Origin: Mesonia profundi
GTDB taxonomy: Bacteria > Bacteroidota > Bacteroidia > Flavobacteriales > Flavobacteriaceae
Assembly: GCF_031085155.1 (NCBI RefSeq)
Contig: NZ_JAVHUL010000004.1
Location: 1 to 64,000 of the forward strand
Reading direction: 5' to 3'
DNA length: 64,000 bases
The notes under the pieces were generated by a model. The model was not told where the DNA came from. It did not search any database and saw nothing but the letters and a program-made list of their open reading frames with translations. Shown one piece after another: positions 15,768 to 23,718 of this stretch (position 1 is the first letter of the stretch; every line of letters starts with the position of its first letter). The position numbers were made by a program, and so were the translations under genes.

Positions 15768-17096
15768 ATGCAATCATTACCAAAAGGAAATAAGAAACTA
15801 TTGCATGCTTGGGCTTTTTATGATTGGGCCAATTCGGTGTATAATTTGGTGATTTCTTCAGCGATATTTCCCATTTTCTATGGAGCGCTAACCATTTTAA
15901 AAGATGACGAAGGCAATGTATTAAACGATAGCGTAGACTTCTTAGGAGTTGAATGGAATAACGATACCTTAATAAGTTATGTTACCGCATTAGCATTTTT
16001 AAGCGTCTCGATTTTGAGTCCGTTTTTAAGTGGAATAGCAGATTATGTAGGAAACAAGAAAAGCTTTATGAAGTTTTTCTGCTATATGGGAGCTGTTTCT
16101 TGTATTGGTTTATTTTGGTTCAATCTAGAACACTTATGGTTTGGGTTATTGTGTTATTATTTAGCGCTTATAGGTTTTTGGGGGAGCATAGTCTTTTACA
16201 ATTCTTACCTTCCAGATATCGCTTTTCCCAACCAACAAGACAGGATTAGTGCCAAAGGTTATTCGTTAGGATATATAGGTAGCGTGATTTTGTTGCTTAT
16301 CTGTTTAGCGATGATTCTTATGTATGATACTTTCGGTTTTGAAGATGAAAGTTTACTTACCAGGCTTTCTTTTGTACTCACTGGAGTGTGGTGGATTGGA
16401 TTTAGTCAGTATACCTATTATTACCTTCCGCAGGGAAATAAAAAGCAAAAACTAACGAGAAATGTAGTTTTTAATGGCTTTAAAGAACTGAAGCAAATCT
16501 GGAATAAAATCAAAGAAAACACTGAGTTAAAGCGATACCTTTATGCATTCTTTATGTACAGTATGGCGGTGCAAACCATCATGTTGATTGCGACTTATTT
16601 TGGAATCGAAGAATTAAACTGGGGCGAGCAAGACCCTACAACAGGGCTTATCATTAGTATTTTATTGATTCAATTGGTGGCTGTTTTAGGAGCAACCCTT
16701 ACTTCAAGGCTTTCAGCGAAACTAGGAAATATTAATGTGCTTATAGGCTTAAACCTCATTTGGATAGCCATTTGTTCATTTGCTTATTTTGTAGAAACGC
16801 CTTTTCAGTTTTACATCACCGCCGCGTTTGTTGGGTTGGTTATGGGGGGGATTCAGTCTTTATCAAGATCCACCTACTCTAAATTGCTACCAGAAAATGC
16901 GGTAGATACGGCCTCATATTTTAGTTTTTATGATGTTTCAGAAAAAATAGGAATTGTAATCGGGATGCTTTCTTATGGTTTCATCGCCCAAAAAACGGGA
17001 AGTATACGTACTACCATTCTCTTTTTTATTGTCTTTTTTGTATTGGGAGTCATATTTCTTTTACGAGTACCTAAACAAAATGTTAAAAATAAATAA
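15768..17096 (+). CDS. UMF1 (Atg22-like) major facilitator superfamily transporter
   Basis: 442-residue inner-membrane protein with about 12 hydrophobic segments. The N-terminus LHAWAFYDWANSVYNLVI is the hallmark of the UMF1 / Atg22-like group (YDWANSAY). Other hydrophobic helices follow in the usual 6+6 pattern with a polar central loop at about 225-250 (QGNKKQKLTRN). Yeast Atg22 effluxes amino acids from the vacuole; bacterial substrates are unknown. It lies between two unrelated genes and has no partner. Family call is good; substrate unknown. Confidence 0.87.
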   Translation: MQSLPKGNKKLLHAWAFYDWANSVYNLVISSAIFPIFYGALTILKDDEGNVLNDSVDFLGVEWNNDTLISYVTALAFLSVSILSPFLSGIADYVGNKKSFMKFFCYMGAVSCIGLFWFNLEHLWFGLLCYYLALIGFWGSIVFYNSYLPDIAFPNQQDRISAKGYSLGYIGSVILLLICLAMILMYDTFGFEDESLLTRLSFVLTGVWWIGFSQYTYYYLPQGNKKQKLTRNVVFNGFKELKQIWNKIKENTELKRYLYAFFMYSMAVQTIMLIATYFGIEELNWGEQDPTTGLIISILLIQLVAVLGATLTSRLSAKLGNINVLIGLNLIWIAICSFAYFVETPFQFYITAAFVGLVMGGIQSLSRSTYSKLLPENAVDTASYFSFYDVSEKIGIVIGMLSYGFIAQKTGSIRTTILFFIVFFVLGVIFLLRVPKQNVKNK

Positions 17097-18427: not shown

Positions 18428-18449
18428 TGAGATCTTAAAAGTATAGTAT

Positions 18450-18480
18450 AAAAAAAGCTCCCTAGTTGGGAGCTTTTTTT
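18450..18480. terminator. Bidirectional terminator between convergent transcripts
   Basis: Stem AAGCTCCC / GGGAGCTT with TAGTT loop, flanked by a run of A and a run of T, so it can stop the DUF6252-like gene on plus and the receptor-murQ operon on minus. Confidence 0.85.
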
Positions 18481-18498
18481 ATACTAGCTTAATTGGTA

Positions 18499-18723
18499 TT
18501 AAGAATCAAACATCGCTTTCATAATCGTATTGATTCCTTTATAGATAAGAAACATCGCGCCTCCACAAGCCAGAATGCCCAAGATTAAAACAGCAACATA
18601 TAAAGGATGTTCTCTATTGTTGAAAGCACTATAGATAACAGAAGGGCCTATAAACATGAGCGGTAAAGCTCCCGCCAAATACCTTACGCCCTTAAATAAT
18701 ACTTCTTTATTAGTTCTTTTCAT
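18499..18723 (-). CDS. Small membrane protein of the DUF6095 type
   Basis: 74 residues with two transmembrane helices (about GVRYLAGALPLMFIGPSVIY and AVLILGILACGGAMFLIYKG) and short polar ends. It matches the DUF6095 family of Bacteroidota as I recall it; no function is known. An in-frame TTG lies 18 bases upstream, but the ATG chosen here overlaps the end of murQ by 14 bases, as expected for translational coupling. Last gene of the receptor-DUF4249-murQ operon, which suggests an envelope role. Confidence 0.75.
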   Translation of the reverse strand: MKRTNKEVLFKGVRYLAGALPLMFIGPSVIYSAFNNREHPLYVAVLILGILACGGAMFLIYKGINTIMKAMFDS

Positions 18724-19537
18724 GTGTCTTAATATTTTCAATTGCTACTCTTACACTTCCGTGGAAATCTAATTGCTCACTGGCAACCTTATGGGTTACC
18801 TTGGTAGCTTCCATAATCATTTTAATTCCTCGTTGCACCAATTTTTCATTGCTCAGTTGCATATCAACCATCTTATTCCCTTTCACACGTCCCAACTGAA
18901 TCATCGTACTGGTAGAAATCATATTTAAAACCAACTTTTGAGCGGTTCCTGCCTTCATACGAGAACTTCCCGTCACAAATTCTGGACCTACAACCACTTC
19001 AATGGGGAATTGAGCTACCAAAGATAAGGGACTTCCAGCATTACACGTAATGCAACCTGTAATAATTTCTTGTTGGTTACAAAATTCAACCGCTCCAATC
19101 ACATAAGGAGTGGTGCCAGAAGCGGCAATTCCAATAAGAACATCAGTACTCGAAATTTGATGCTTCTTGAGATCTAGAACGGCCTGTTCTTTGCTGTCTT
19201 CGGCATTTTCTACCGCATCCCTAATCGCTTTTTCGCCGCCTGCAATAATACCAATCACCAATTCTTTCGAAACTCCAAAAGTAGGCGGACATTCGCTAGC
19301 ATCCAAAATTCCTAATCTTCCGCTGGTTCCTGCACCTATATAAAATAATCTTCCTCCATCTTTCAATTTAGCAACTACTTGTTGCGTTAATTTTTCTATC
19401 TGCGGAAGTGATTTTTCTACTGCTAGAGGAACACTTTGGTCTTCTTGATTTATAGTAGTGAGCAATTCTGTTAAAGACATTTTTTCTAAATGCTCGTGAT
19501 TACTGGATTGTTCTGTAGTTTTTATAAATTTTGCCAT
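18710..19537 (-). CDS. murQ: N-acetylmuramic acid 6-phosphate etherase
   Basis: Cleaves the lactyl ether of MurNAc-6-phosphate to GlcNAc-6-phosphate and D-lactate, a key step in recycling cell-wall sugar. 275 residues, one SIS (sugar isomerase) domain with GAGTSGRLG (68-76), the catalytic Glu82 in DASECPPTFG (equivalent to the general acid of E. coli MurQ), GIAASGTTPYV and GSSRMKAGTAQK. The start is 1 base after the DUF4249 stop and the end overlaps DUF6095, so it is in an operon with an outer-membrane receptor. No MurNAc kinase or transporter of known type is in the window. The enzyme call is firm. Confidence 0.95.
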   Translation of the reverse strand: MAKFIKTTEQSSNHEHLEKMSLTELLTTINQEDQSVPLAVEKSLPQIEKLTQQVVAKLKDGGRLFYIGAGTSGRLGILDASECPPTFGVSKELVIGIIAGGEKAIRDAVENAEDSKEQAVLDLKKHQISSTDVLIGIAASGTTPYVIGAVEFCNQQEIITGCITCNAGSPLSLVAQFPIEVVVGPEFVTGSSRMKAGTAQKLVLNMISTSTMIQLGRVKGNKMVDMQLSNEKLVQRGIKMIMEATKVTHKVASEQLDFHGSVRVAIENIKTHEKN

Positions 19538-19538
19538 A

Positions 19539-20336
19539 TTATTCTACCGTATACGTGGTTTGGTATTCTTGTGAAATTCTAAAATAACCTAATGGAAACT
19601 TATTGGGTGTGGTCGTATTGACCATATTTCCTCGTACAGAAGCCGATGCTGTAGAAAACGGACTTCCGGAATCGTTGGATTGTTGTAAAACGGTAGAAAG
19701 ATAAGTGCTGTACCTTGCGCTTACGCCTTGTATTTTTATATTAACCACATCTCCGCTTTGCAATTCTTCCGAATAAAAAGTAGAAACTTGATTCCCATTA
19801 ATTAATTTATCATCAGTGGTATCAAATACTGCGTTAAAATCAGCCGCTTGAAAATAAAAATAATAATTATTTCCTAATTCTGGAGGATCAGTGAAATAAG
19901 CATTAATGGCAGTATAATCTTCAGAAAAGCTATTGGTGCTTTGTTCTACATAATCAAAAGGAACCGTGGAATAAAGTTCAGTTTCTCCTTCATATACTTC
20001 TTGATCATAAACAATCCTTAAGGTATAAGTTGAGTTTTCTAGCATAGGAATAGTATCTATATAAGTCATTGAGAACTCATTACTCAACACATATTCTTGC
20101 TCGTTTACCAAAAGACTTACTTGTGCATTGTTTACATAAGAAGGGCTTGTCTCAAAAAATGGAGTGGTCGTAGACAGTAGAACTTTTAATAGTCCTTCAG
20201 TAGCGTTTTCTTGCTGAATTCCTACAGCTTCAATCACCAATTTAGGCGCTCTTTCTTCTAAATCTACCTCAATAACATCTTGACAGCTCACTAAAAAAGC
20301 TGGAAAGATAATCAGTAAAAAGAATAATTTTTTCAT
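19539..20336 (-). CDS. DUF4249 family lipoprotein, partner of the TonB receptor
   Basis: 265 residues, lipobox LVSC (Cys18), followed by VIEVDLEERAPKLVIEA, the usual opening of DUF4249 proteins. The rest is beta-rich, with Ig-like strands (YTLRIVYDQEVYEGETEL) and an aromatic Tyr-rich middle. DUF4249 lipoproteins are regularly encoded next to carboxypeptidase-regulatory-domain TonB receptors and probably sit on them at the outer membrane as SusD does on SusC; that role is inferred. It begins 3 bases after the receptor stop. Confidence 0.88.
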   Translation of the reverse strand: MKKLFFLLIIFPAFLVSCQDVIEVDLEERAPKLVIEAVGIQQENATEGLLKVLLSTTTPFFETSPSYVNNAQVSLLVNEQEYVLSNEFSMTYIDTIPMLENSTYTLRIVYDQEVYEGETELYSTVPFDYVEQSTNSFSEDYTAINAYFTDPPELGNNYYFYFQAADFNAVFDTTDDKLINGNQVSTFYSEELQSGDVVNIKIQGVSARYSTYLSTVLQQSNDSGSPFSTASASVRGNMVNTTTPNKFPLGYFRISQEYQTTYTVE

Positions 20337-20339
20337 TTC

Positions 20340-22700
20340 TTAAAATTTAAAACGATAGGCAGCAGAAGGCACAATCCCAAATATAGACAATCTTACCGCT
20401 TCTATATTTCCGTTATCTTCGTTTCTTCCAAAATTAATGGAAGCGGCATTTCTCCTATTGTAAACATTGTAAATGCTAAATACCCATTCGCCTTGCCATC
20501 CCTTAGTTTTTTCGGGTTTAGGTGTGTAGATGGCAGAAAAATCTAACCTGTGGTATGCGGGTAATCGATTAGCGTTACGCGGACCATAATCGGGGACGGT
20601 TTGTCCTTCAAAGTAATATTTGGCATTGGGAAACGTACTTGGTCTTCCCGTTTGGAATACAAAATTTGCGTTTGATTTCCATTTAGAATTCCATTGGTAA
20701 CTCCCTGTAATGGAGATGTCGTGTGGTTTGTCCCAACCCGTTCTGTACCAGTTTCCGTTATTGATGCCTGCTTCATTAGCAGTTCTTCCTGGAGTCTGTT
20801 GTTCAGATTTAGAAAAGGTGTAGGCCAACCAACCGGTAAACCTACCTACATTCTTTTTTAGCAAGATTTCAATACCGTAAGCACGAGCTCTTCCGCTAAG
20901 GAGTACTTGCTCAATGGCATCGTTGGCAATTAAGTCGGCACCGTCTATATAATCGAGTCTATTGTCGATACTTTTATAAAAAATCTCGGTTTCTAAATCG
21001 AATACTTCAAATTTTCTAAAATACCCTAAGGCGTATTGATGTGATTGTTGTGGTTGAATATATTTTCCGCTGGGCGCCCAAATGTCAAGGGGAGTAGGAG
21101 CATCGGTGTTAGAAATAAGGTGTAAATACTGATTGATGAATTGATAACTGGCCTTAACGGAACTCTTTTCGTTGAGTTGATAGGCTATTGATATTCTTGG
21201 CTCTAAATTCACAAAGGTTTTAGCGAAATCGCTTCTAGACTGATTCTCTGTTCCTATAATAGGTGCTTTTTCGTAAATCTGAAGGTTTTCATTAAATACT
21301 AACGGATTTCCGTTTTCGTAAAGGTTCACCTCCTCTTGTCCTAAACGGCTAAAAAGATTAAGTCGTAGACCGTAATTTACAGTCAATTTCTCAGTAAATT
21401 TTTGTTCCGCGGAAGCGTAAAAAGCATTCTGCCACGCATATTTTTTAGTAAACTGTTCTTTTATGATGCCCGCATTCTCATTAGAGGGTTCTATATAGCC
21501 GGGATTAAAACTGTAATAATTGCTCTGTACGCCATATTCTAGGTCAATCTTATCTGATAATTTGCTGTTTAGTTGGTACCTTAAGGAATAATCCCGAATC
21601 CCACTGTTGTAGTTAAAGCTTATAAAATCTAGGGTGAGTCCAAAATAATAATCAGATAATCCTAAAGAGAGTTTAGAATTGGTGTTTTCATTAAAGCGGT
21701 GTGTCCAATCTATTTTAGCGACCGAGCTGCCATAGGTATTTTTAAAACTATCGTTGATATTAAAGACATCCCGACCAAAATATCCTGAAAACTCCAATTC
21801 ATTATTCTCGTCGAAAATATGGCTTAACTTGGTATTGATATCGTAAAAATAAGCAGAATTAGGGTTGTCAATCAACTTTAAAAAAAGATGTGCATAAGAA
21901 CTTCTTCCCGCTACTAAAAATGAAGTTTTACCTTTATTAATAGGACCCTCAAAGAGTAGTTTGCTACTCACCAAACCAATACTACCATCAATATTTAATT
22001 GATCAAAATTACCTTTTCTTTGATTTATTTCTAACACCGAGGAAACTCGCCCGCCATACTTGGAGGGAATTCCTCCTTTATATAAGGTCAGGTCTTTTAC
22101 GGCGCCTGGATGCATAATCGAGAAAATCCCGAAGAGGTGGGAATCGTTATAAATGCTTGCGCCATCTAACAAAACCAGGTTTTGATCTGCAGCGCCGCCC
22201 CTTACATGAAATCCTCCTGCGCCTTCGCTGCTGTTAGTGACTCCGGGTAAAAGCGTGATGGCTTTTATGATATCGGCTTCTCCTAAAACCGAGGGAATAT
22301 TTGCAATGTCTTTAGTCGTGATTTTATTCACGCTCATTTGAGGTTTTTTTAGCTTTAGGCGGTCATTGGTTTTGGTGATGATCACTTCTTCTAGACTCTG
22401 GGATTCTGGCTCTAGCAGAATGTTTATGGAGAGGTCTTTATCAACTTTAATCTTTTGAGCGTATTCCTTAAAACCTAAATAACTAACTAAGAGTATGTAA
22501 TCACCTTCTTTTAACTGAATAGAAAAGGCTCCGTCTAAATCGGTGACATCTCCTTTAGGTGTGTTTTCAATACTTACATTCGCACCTAAAACAGGAAAAT
22601 TATCTTCAGTGTTTTTAACAACTCCAGAGACGCTATAGTTTTGAGAAAAGCCAACTTGAAAGAAAGTTAAGCTTAACAGAAGAAAAAAGTGTTTGCACAT
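20340..22700 (-). CDS. TonB-dependent outer-membrane receptor with carboxypeptidase-like regulatory domain
   Basis: 786 residues. A signal peptide (MCKHFFLLLSL to GFSQ) is followed by a CarboxypepD_reg-like beta-sandwich (about 21-100: VSGVVKNTEDNFPVLGANVS), a plug domain (about 110-235: HVRGGAADQNLVLLDGA, GGIPSKYGGRVSSVLEI) and a 22-strand-type barrel ending in aromatic PSAAYRFKF. Such receptors import large substrates using TonB energy. A longer in-frame start at 22763 was rejected: it lacks a signal peptide at its N-terminus, and an exact promoter box lies between the two. A TTCCGCGGAA palindrome lies inside the gene. The operon partners are DUF4249 and MurQ. Confidence 0.93.
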   Translation of the reverse strand: MCKHFFLLLSLTFFQVGFSQNYSVSGVVKNTEDNFPVLGANVSIENTPKGDVTDLDGAFSIQLKEGDYILLVSYLGFKEYAQKIKVDKDLSINILLEPESQSLEEVIITKTNDRLKLKKPQMSVNKITTKDIANIPSVLGEADIIKAITLLPGVTNSSEGAGGFHVRGGAADQNLVLLDGASIYNDSHLFGIFSIMHPGAVKDLTLYKGGIPSKYGGRVSSVLEINQRKGNFDQLNIDGSIGLVSSKLLFEGPINKGKTSFLVAGRSSYAHLFLKLIDNPNSAYFYDINTKLSHIFDENNELEFSGYFGRDVFNINDSFKNTYGSSVAKIDWTHRFNENTNSKLSLGLSDYYFGLTLDFISFNYNSGIRDYSLRYQLNSKLSDKIDLEYGVQSNYYSFNPGYIEPSNENAGIIKEQFTKKYAWQNAFYASAEQKFTEKLTVNYGLRLNLFSRLGQEEVNLYENGNPLVFNENLQIYEKAPIIGTENQSRSDFAKTFVNLEPRISIAYQLNEKSSVKASYQFINQYLHLISNTDAPTPLDIWAPSGKYIQPQQSHQYALGYFRKFEVFDLETEIFYKSIDNRLDYIDGADLIANDAIEQVLLSGRARAYGIEILLKKNVGRFTGWLAYTFSKSEQQTPGRTANEAGINNGNWYRTGWDKPHDISITGSYQWNSKWKSNANFVFQTGRPSTFPNAKYYFEGQTVPDYGPRNANRLPAYHRLDFSAIYTPKPEKTKGWQGEWVFSIYNVYNRRNAASINFGRNEDNGNIEAVRLSIFGIVPSAAYRFKF
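21405..21414. repeat. Dispersed palindrome TTCCGCGGAA, copy 1
   Basis: 10-bp perfect palindrome inside the TonB receptor gene. Read in the gene's frame it gives GCT TCC GCG GAA (Ala-Ser-Ala-Glu), the same phase as the other four copies. Confidence 0.6.
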
Positions 22701-22716
22701 CTTTTGGAAATTTGGA

Positions 22717-22724
22717 CAAATATA
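22717..22724 (-). promoter_or_regulatory. -7 promoter box of the receptor-murQ operon
   Basis: TATATTTG on the minus strand, exact consensus, 16 bases before the ATG at 22700. No clear TTG lies at the -33 distance. Confidence 0.6.
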
Positions 22725-22956
22725 GGCTAATTTGATGAGTCTATTTAAGCATAAACAGCACATATTAAAGAGGCAAATTGCTACTATAGATCATAAATAA
22801 ATGATAAATTTTTTAAGAAAATGACAGTTTATAAGAAGGTTTTTTGAAGAGATCTGGTTGGAAAGCAGGCGTTTTTACTGTCGATTTTCTTCTTAATTGA
22901 TTAAAAAACAGTAGCTTATACCTGAGTTTAGTATTTAAGAAACTTTAACATTTCAC

Positions 22957-22988
22957 TTGTTTGCTATATGAAACTTATCGTATATTTG
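22957..22988 (+). promoter_or_regulatory. Promoter of the lysozyme-like gene
   Basis: TTG at 22957-22959 and TATATTTG at 22981-22988 are 21 bases apart, both elements matching the Bacteroidota consensus. It predicts a leader of about 50 bases before the TTG start. Confidence 0.7.
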
Positions 22989-23012
22989 CACCGCAAAATT
23001 AAAGGCGGTCAT

Positions 23013-23045
23013 ATGACTTATAAAAGTCCTTTAGAAAAAAGTTGA
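23013..23045 (+). other. Possible 10-codon upstream reading frame
   Basis: ATG to TGA encoding MTYKSPLEKS, lying between the promoter and the TTG start of the lysozyme-like gene and ending 1 base before it. It may be a translated leader that couples or regulates the weak start, or it may be chance. There is no homology evidence. Confidence 0.25.
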
Positions 23046-23046
23046 T

Positions 23047-23718
23047 TTGAAGAAAAAAATCGCAAAAATATCAATGTTACCAGCAATTGGAGCAGTGATT
23101 TTTTTAAGTTTTTCGAATAAAGAAGAAGCTATTACTGCAAGTGTGAGTACTATGAATTTACCAGAGGCTTACACGGTAAAAATGAATGATGAAATTTTGG
23201 ACGAGGTAGATGAAACTATTTTTTATCCCGTTCTAAAAAAGAGCTACCTAGGTTTTAAAGAAGCTGTTGGCTTTAAAGAATCTAGGGGTGATTACCAAAT
23301 CATCAACCAATTTGGTTATTTGGGTAAATACCAGTTTGGGATTGGAACTCTCCACCTTATTGGTATTTATGACGCTAAAACCTTTTTAAACAATCCCGAA
23401 CTTCAAGAAGCTGCCTTTTATGCCAATGCTTCGAGAAATAAATGGATTTTACGTAAAGATATTGCTAGGTCTGTAGGAAAGACTATGAATGGAGTCGAAA
23501 TCACAGAATCTGGTATTTTGGCTGCAGCTCACTTAGCGGGTCCTGGAAGTGTAAAAAAATATTTAAGAAGTGGTGGGGTGCAAGGTTTTTCTGATGCTTT
23601 TGGAACCAGTATTAAATATTACCTTAACAAATTTAAAGGGTACGACACTTCTTTTGTAACTCCCAATAGGAAAGCAAAAGCTATAGTAAAAAGAAAATTA
23701 TACGAAGGAGTGCTTTAA
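23047..23718 (+). CDS. Exported lysozyme-like peptidoglycan-acting protein
   Basis: 223 residues with a signal-like N-terminus (KKKIAKISMLPAIGAVIFLSF). From about 68 to 200 the text looks like a goose-lysozyme or lytic-transglycosylase-like fold: GFKESRGDYQIIN with candidate catalytic Glu78, YLGKYQFGIGTLHLIGI, and AAHLAGPGSVKKYL. It probably cuts or binds peptidoglycan in the periplasm. The start is TTG; the next ATG would remove the basic N-terminus of the signal. It is divergent from the receptor-DUF4249-murQ operon and its stop is 1 base from that of the convergent RsmI-like gene. Fold call is moderate; enzyme activity is inferred. Confidence 0.72.
   Translation: MKKKIAKISMLPAIGAVIFLSFSNKEEAITASVSTMNLPEAYTVKMNDEILDEVDETIFYPVLKKSYLGFKEAVGFKESRGDYQIINQFGYLGKYQFGIGTLHLIGIYDAKTFLNNPELQEAAFYANASRNKWILRKDIARSVGKTMNGVEITESGILAAAHLAGPGSVKKYLRSGGVQGFSDAFGTSIKYYLNKFKGYDTSFVTPNRKAKAIVKRKLYEGVL

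Follow-up and report, generated by a model that had tools for sequence, protein, structure and literature searches.

A gene cluster shared by many Flavobacteriaceae places a TonB-dependent receptor–DUF4249 pair beside a MurQ–DUF6095 pair

We analyzed a 64-kb stretch of DNA from Mesonia profundi (positions 1 to 64,000 of contig NZ_JAVHUL010000004.1, hereafter the window; the genome comprises 3.08 Mb in 76 contigs), whose minus strand carries a run of four genes for a TonB-dependent receptor, a DUF4249 lipoprotein, the N-acetylmuramic acid (MurNAc) 6-phosphate etherase MurQ and a small DUF6095 protein. We lean toward the view that this cluster consists of two functional pairs, receptor–DUF4249 and MurQ–DUF6095, which have been kept adjacent by an old gene order. 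Lid action and cargo are what we infer for the first pair: the receptor would bind a nutrient, the DUF4249 lid would close, and TonB energy would draw the cargo into the periplasm. In the second pair, cytoplasmic MurQ, with DUF6095, would split MurNAc-6-phosphate made by AnmK into N-acetylglucosamine (GlcNAc)-6-phosphate and lactate. Gene order, family assignments, conservation and the presence of AnmK in the genome were established directly.

The receptor occupies an open frame at 20340-22763 (-) with CarboxypepD_reg and Plug matches. Its start is most likely better placed at the ATG at 22700, which would open a signal peptide and yields a protein of 786 aa (20340..22700) compared to a median of 791 in relatives. 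Directly beside it lies the DUF4249 lipoprotein gene (19539-20336, minus strand; 265 aa, DUF4249 family match), followed on the same strand by murQ (18710-19537; 275 aa) and the DUF6095 gene (18499-18741; DUF6095 family match). For the latter, a start at ATG 18723 is most likely preferable (18499..18723, 74 aa), as judged from a 14-nt overlap with MurQ that equals the median overlap of 66 relatives. The junctions measure 3 nt between receptor and DUF4249 (20337-20339) and 1 nt between DUF4249 and MurQ (19538), and MurQ and DUF6095 overlap. A layout of four co-directional genes with tight junctions had been proposed from the sequence alone; gene calls and family matches bear it out, with two starts shifted. 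We infer co-transcription, the four genes probably forming one transcript.

The cluster is widespread in the family and not private to the genome of the window, as seen in two sets of loci. The first comprises 80 MurQ loci from 79 genomes, picked by hand from the best-scoring MurQ matches listed, with short contigs left out, and is not a random sample. Receptor and DUF4249 genes immediately precede murQ in 32 of these loci and are separated from it by inserted genes in another 8; a further 8 loci are of a SusC-SusD type, and 32 show neither arrangement. DUF6095 is found within 150 nt of MurQ in 68/80 loci, and the 12 loci with no DUF6095 match are the 8 SusC-SusD loci together with L063, L067, L116 and L089 (contig ends). 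Common upstream neighbors of the cluster are trmD, rplS and icd (80 loci; Pfam), so that shared ancestry can explain the adjacency of receptor and murQ. The second set, the best 80 loci of named genomes in a scan with a DUF4249 alignment, has murQ-DUF6095 directly next to the receptor pair in 66 loci and murQ after an insert in 6. In a further 6, murQ is gone and DUF6095 follows DUF4249 (three Christiangramia, one Gramella, two Gelidibacter); one Nonlabens has no nearby murQ, and one locus meets a contig end. The search for murQ elsewhere was positive in all six genomes covered, namely five of the six that had lost it from the locus and the Nonlabens. The four-gene arrangement first noted in the window is thus kept in many Flavobacteriaceae; the restriction to a single genome that had been named as grounds for rejecting the proposal was not observed. 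Among the open-licence PubMed Central (PMC) papers listed, we found one that names DUF4249, no account of a TonB receptor-DUF4249-MurQ arrangement and nothing on DUF6095.

Two side observations concern the surroundings of the cluster. In five of the eight loci with inserted genes, a HlyD-MacB-TolC-like set separates DUF4249 from murQ (L047, L053, L068, L093 and L110; labels by eye), and the same insert occurs in L213, L231, L248, L255, L262 and L271 of the second set (MacB by profile). Past DUF6095, L055 and L078 carry an rRNA operon on the opposite strand, a possible reason for the many contigs that stop right behind the cluster.

The joints of the cluster differ in width. With first possible start codons used throughout, the median gap is 2.5 nt between receptor and DUF4249 (n=40) and -14 nt between MurQ and DUF6095 (n=66), compared to 48 nt between DUF4249 and MurQ (n=32) and 72 nt between icd and receptor (n=33; difference between the latter two, p 0.02). 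The two pairs are therefore joined only a little more tightly to each other than icd is to the receptor. In addition, the receptor pair occurs without murQ in genomes G157, G013, G244, G236, G210, G194 and G165, whose fetched stretches are free of N bases. Of the 32 genomes with neither arrangement, 24 have a related receptor pair elsewhere. In G157, G194 and G210, it sits at the icd locus; the remaining pairs lie mainly in a neighborhood of mnmG-like, OmpH-like, holB and pgk-like genes or else close to a sigma-factor gene (mnmG and pgk by eye). On the far side of holB and the pgk-like gene, a wall-related SLT-LysM gene stands a few genes from some of these pairs. Profiles for MurQ, AnmK (built from one sequence), GH3, NamZ and SSS matched nothing in 26 other-place stretches, one of which, L191, contains N bases; a single DUF6095 was found among the 26, in L159. 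An extra or other-place copy was present in 5/39 linked as opposed to 21/29 unlinked genomes (the 32 minus G157, G194 and G210; Fisher p 7e-7, a test that ignores relatedness). Since linked genomes rarely have a second copy and unlinked ones mostly have an other-place copy, the copies appear to do the same job.

Several points weigh against two separate pairs. Receptor groups cluster on a tree of 83 rows, and relatives were consequently counted more than once in the Fisher test. The DUF4249-MurQ joint of the window is only 1 nt wide and the gap is at most 50 nt in 17/32 directly linked loci, which would suit one operon with one purpose. Because murQ is still found elsewhere in the searched genomes, its departure from the locus does not in itself cut a functional tie. 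Moreover, a well-covering relative of the receptor pair at E<=1e-5 is missing from 8/32 unlinked genomes, which are exceptions to a near-universal presence, and the 80 MurQ loci represent a manual choice among the top-scoring MurQ matches.

Regarding the first pair, DUF4249 is the probable lid of the receptor, by analogy to BT2172/BT2173 of Bacteroides thetaiotaomicron. Its lipobox was seen by eye, and Cys18 is invariant in 40/40 aligned sequences. A single-chain model from 40 sequences (mean predicted local distance difference test score, 87) consists mostly of beta strands with beta-sandwich regions, and tandem fibronectin-type domains came out as its best matches in the PDB (TM-score of about 0.2-0.3); a PDB search by sequence returned nothing significant (best E 0.68). 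The closest named DUF4249 relatives among the matches listed share 48% (a Mesonia) and 43% (a Salegentibacter) identity, and the genome of the window has three DUF4249 genes. An identity as SusC/SusD was rejected for the pair: the receptor scores 71 bits on TIGR04056 against a cut-off of 368, and its partner is DUF4249, not SusD. The receptor subfamily is present in most genomes searched, usually as a single copy. This suggests that the cargo meets a common requirement, which need not be the cell wall.

Regarding the second pair, MurQ scores 329.7 bits on TIGR00274 (cut-off 302), and its Glu82 and Glu113 align with glutamates of 4LZJ; we take them to correspond to the catalytic Glu83 and Glu114 of E. 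coli MurQ. The prediction that this protein is an etherase was thus supported by a firm family assignment. MurQ splits MurNAc-6-phosphate into GlcNAc-6-phosphate and lactate, and AnmK makes MurNAc-6-phosphate from anhydro-MurNAc. It had also been stated that neither a kinase nor a permease is present. This holds inside the cluster; elsewhere in the genome, however, there is one AnmK (PF03702, 230 bits), so that MurQ fits the anhydro-MurNAc route, as well as one NamZ and one GH3-beta-lactamase fusion. The AmpG permease profile TIGR00901 had no match in the genome at E<=0.001, while the E. coli control gave a signal. Another protein of the major facilitator superfamily (MFS) could serve in place of AmpG; the genome has 9 MFS_1 matches in 8 open frames. 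Across the family, MurQ was found in 235/249 genomes and AnmK in 237/249, with 14 missing MurQ, 12 missing AnmK and 4 missing both, a weak signal of co-absence. We gave up on testing dependence with the 14 genomes in which MurQ was missing, since 3/80 and 5/40 fetched stretches hold more than 50 N, which makes such counts unreliable.

The main alternative, which we regard as possible rather than probable, is that the receptor and its lid import GlcNAc-anhydro-MurNAc, MurNAc or muropeptides that are external or have been lost from the cell. Periplasmic trimming, passage through a putative inner-membrane carrier, phosphorylation by AnmK and opening by MurQ would follow, and the operon would tie entry across the outer membrane to the final step of catabolism. 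The tight co-directional cluster in 32/80 family loci and in 66 of the best 80 DUF4249-picked loci speaks for such a link, as do the AnmK, NamZ and GH3 fusion of the genome and the relatives in which murQ likewise sits beside a TonB-linked SusC-SusD pair, with SSS in 8/8 and GH3 plus NamZ in 6/8 loci. On the other hand, the receptor pair is still found at loci from which murQ has gone, MurQ is joined to it more loosely than the members of each pair are to one another, AmpG was not found in the genome, and no murQ, anmK, GH3 or NamZ accompanies the pair in the 26 other-place stretches. We therefore consider wall fragments a less likely cargo than a general or unrelated one, given that the subfamily is widespread, outlives the departure of murQ and lacks these genes at other places. 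Muropeptide import by the receptor is possible, if somewhat weakened by the murQ-less receptor loci and the 26 stretches empty of such genes. The bolder proposal, in our estimate doubtful, is that in most Flavobacteriaceae the DUF4249-lidded receptor serves specifically to import peptidoglycan turnover fragments and completes a recycling loop with AnmK and MurQ. If the receptor did carry wall fragments, a common aquatic family would possess a TonB-powered gate to recover or scavenge peptidoglycan, and wall recycling would be tied to outer-membrane energy. Even if it does not, the analysis draws attention to a receptor-lid pair that is widespread and mostly present once per genome, and whose cargo could be resolved with knock-out strains.

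Better candidates for TonB-dependent import of wall sugars than the cluster of the window are the SusC-SusD- and SusC-type murQ loci of relatives. In 8/80 loci (L046, L051, L057, L061, L072, L100, L105 and L114), murQ belongs to a SusC-SusD-SSS group, to which GH3 and NamZ are added in six; L105 has an AnmK match inside the stretch, by position. Similar murQ groups with SusC, SusD or SSS occur in L283, L285 (with AnmK), L286, L287 and L291. In four Christiangramia/Gramella genomes (L279-L282), murQ is gone from the icd cluster and now lies near a SusC gene; its surroundings in L279 hold ROK, MFS, creatininase, GH20 and CBM9 matches (Pfam). The SusC-SusD-SSS-MurQ loci, most of them with GH3 and NamZ, are the clearer candidate wall-sugar loci, and both they and the similar groups are candidates for peptidoglycan-sugar utilization; no SusC-SusD-SSS-MurQ peptidoglycan locus was found among the open-licence papers listed.

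Alternatively, the four genes could share a transcript for expression only, a housekeeping promoter serving receptor, lid and MurQ that have no common substrate. This would suit a cluster that commonly stands behind trmD, rplS and icd, a growth-related neighborhood, and that lies near dnaA in the window and near the rRNA operon in L055 and L078. We nevertheless consider it quite unlikely, and the promoter evidence amounts to a single weak box. This TATATTTG -7 box (22717..22724, minus strand), the likely promoter of the four-gene run, lies 16 bases ahead of the receptor ATG at 22700 and has no clear -33 element. TANNTTTG occurs 81 times in the window compared to 88 expected, i.e. at chance frequency, which makes a single box weak evidence of a promoter. 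A sigma-70 scan of the window was uninformative here (16 found, 25.3 expected). A stem search placed a terminator with a 19-bp stem at 18444..18486 (no strand assigned), between the operon and a convergent DUF6252 gene, while six other terminator-like sites have 5 or 6 pairs. From the original prediction of one promoter box and a shared terminator, the terminator and the presence of a single operon box stand, and the box itself carries little weight. Beyond the terminator, at 15768-17096, lies an ATG22-like MFS permease gene, which among the 80 loci is near murQ only in the genus of the window.

On the other side of the receptor, a divergent gene with an apparent TTG start (23047..23718, plus strand) encodes an exported lysozyme-like protein, a neighbor outside the conserved cluster. 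Its likely promoter is TTTG-17-TATATTTG (22960..22988, plus strand). Within 23013-23049, the TTG start seems to lie two bases past a 10-codon ATG frame, a possible leader peptide. The evidence for the label "lysozyme-like" is thin. The protein matches no family in Pfam (E<=1) or NCBIfam (E<=0.001) and gave no significant hit when searched by sequence against the PDB; its structure model, which is poor, produced no fold match with an E value below 2.8. The PHROG tail lysozyme match (6.3e-10) covers 49 residues only. Tail lysozyme and endolysin families of PHROG both match 5/5 aligned members, in which Glu78 is invariant, the matches being to PHROG only.

This gene had been taken as a member of the set. 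It was seen in 5/80 family stretches (most of the stretches show no rsmI, and the count covers stretches rather than whole genomes), and it adjoins the receptor in two, the genome of the window and a genus-mate; among the best 80 DUF4249-picked loci, it adjoins the cluster in two, a Mesonia and a Salegentibacter. L055 reads dnaA, a low-molecular-weight phosphatase gene, rsmI and the lysozyme-like gene, with trmD, rplS and icd among the several genes that separate the last of these from murQ. The distance from the lysozyme-like gene to murQ is about 10 kb or more in L055 and L121 and over 10 kb in L048. We did not find trmD, rplS or icd within the window, whose order resembles that of L055 with the middle missing, so that the adjacency would be secondary. 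By its position, the gene seems to belong to the rsmI/dnaA side, and it probably became a neighbor when the trmD-rplS-icd segment left the lineage of the window. A single release-import-degrade system of all five genes, suggested by the adjacency in the window, the genus-mate, a Mesonia and a Salegentibacter, is therefore rejected as highly improbable, since the lysozyme-like gene, of putative activity only (PHROG matches, poor model), adjoins the cluster in that lineage alone and lies far from murQ in L055 (there next to rsmI), L121 and L048.

The two-pair cluster can be compared with known systems. The murTKQ and AmpG cluster of Tannerella forsythia is likewise a gene group of Bacteroidota with MurQ for the use of MurNAc; it has the MurNAc transporter MurT, the kinase MurK and AmpG, and no outer-membrane receptor is named in the portions of these reports that describe it (PMC7670621, PMC10465942, PMC5790795). 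The cluster of the window, in contrast, has a receptor and lid and neither kinase nor permease. The Caulobacter GlcNAc cluster resembles it in that an amino-sugar TonB receptor is encoded with sugar-phosphate enzymes, but it has a phosphotransferase system permease, NagA and NagB, and C. crescentus lacks MurQ (PMC13046382). The SusC-SusD-type murQ loci of relatives share a TonB-linked outer-membrane pair in a murQ gene group; they differ in having SusC and SusD instead of DUF4249, in adding an SSS symporter, GH3 and NamZ, and in lacking DUF6095 after murQ. Finally, the receptor BT2172 and the DUF4249 protein BT2173 of B. thetaiotaomicron are reported to act together (PMC11003636, citing Price et al. 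2023). Although the passages on this pair mention neither murQ nor a cargo, the account describes a TonB-dependent receptor gene beside a DUF4249 gene, as in the window (PMC11003636).

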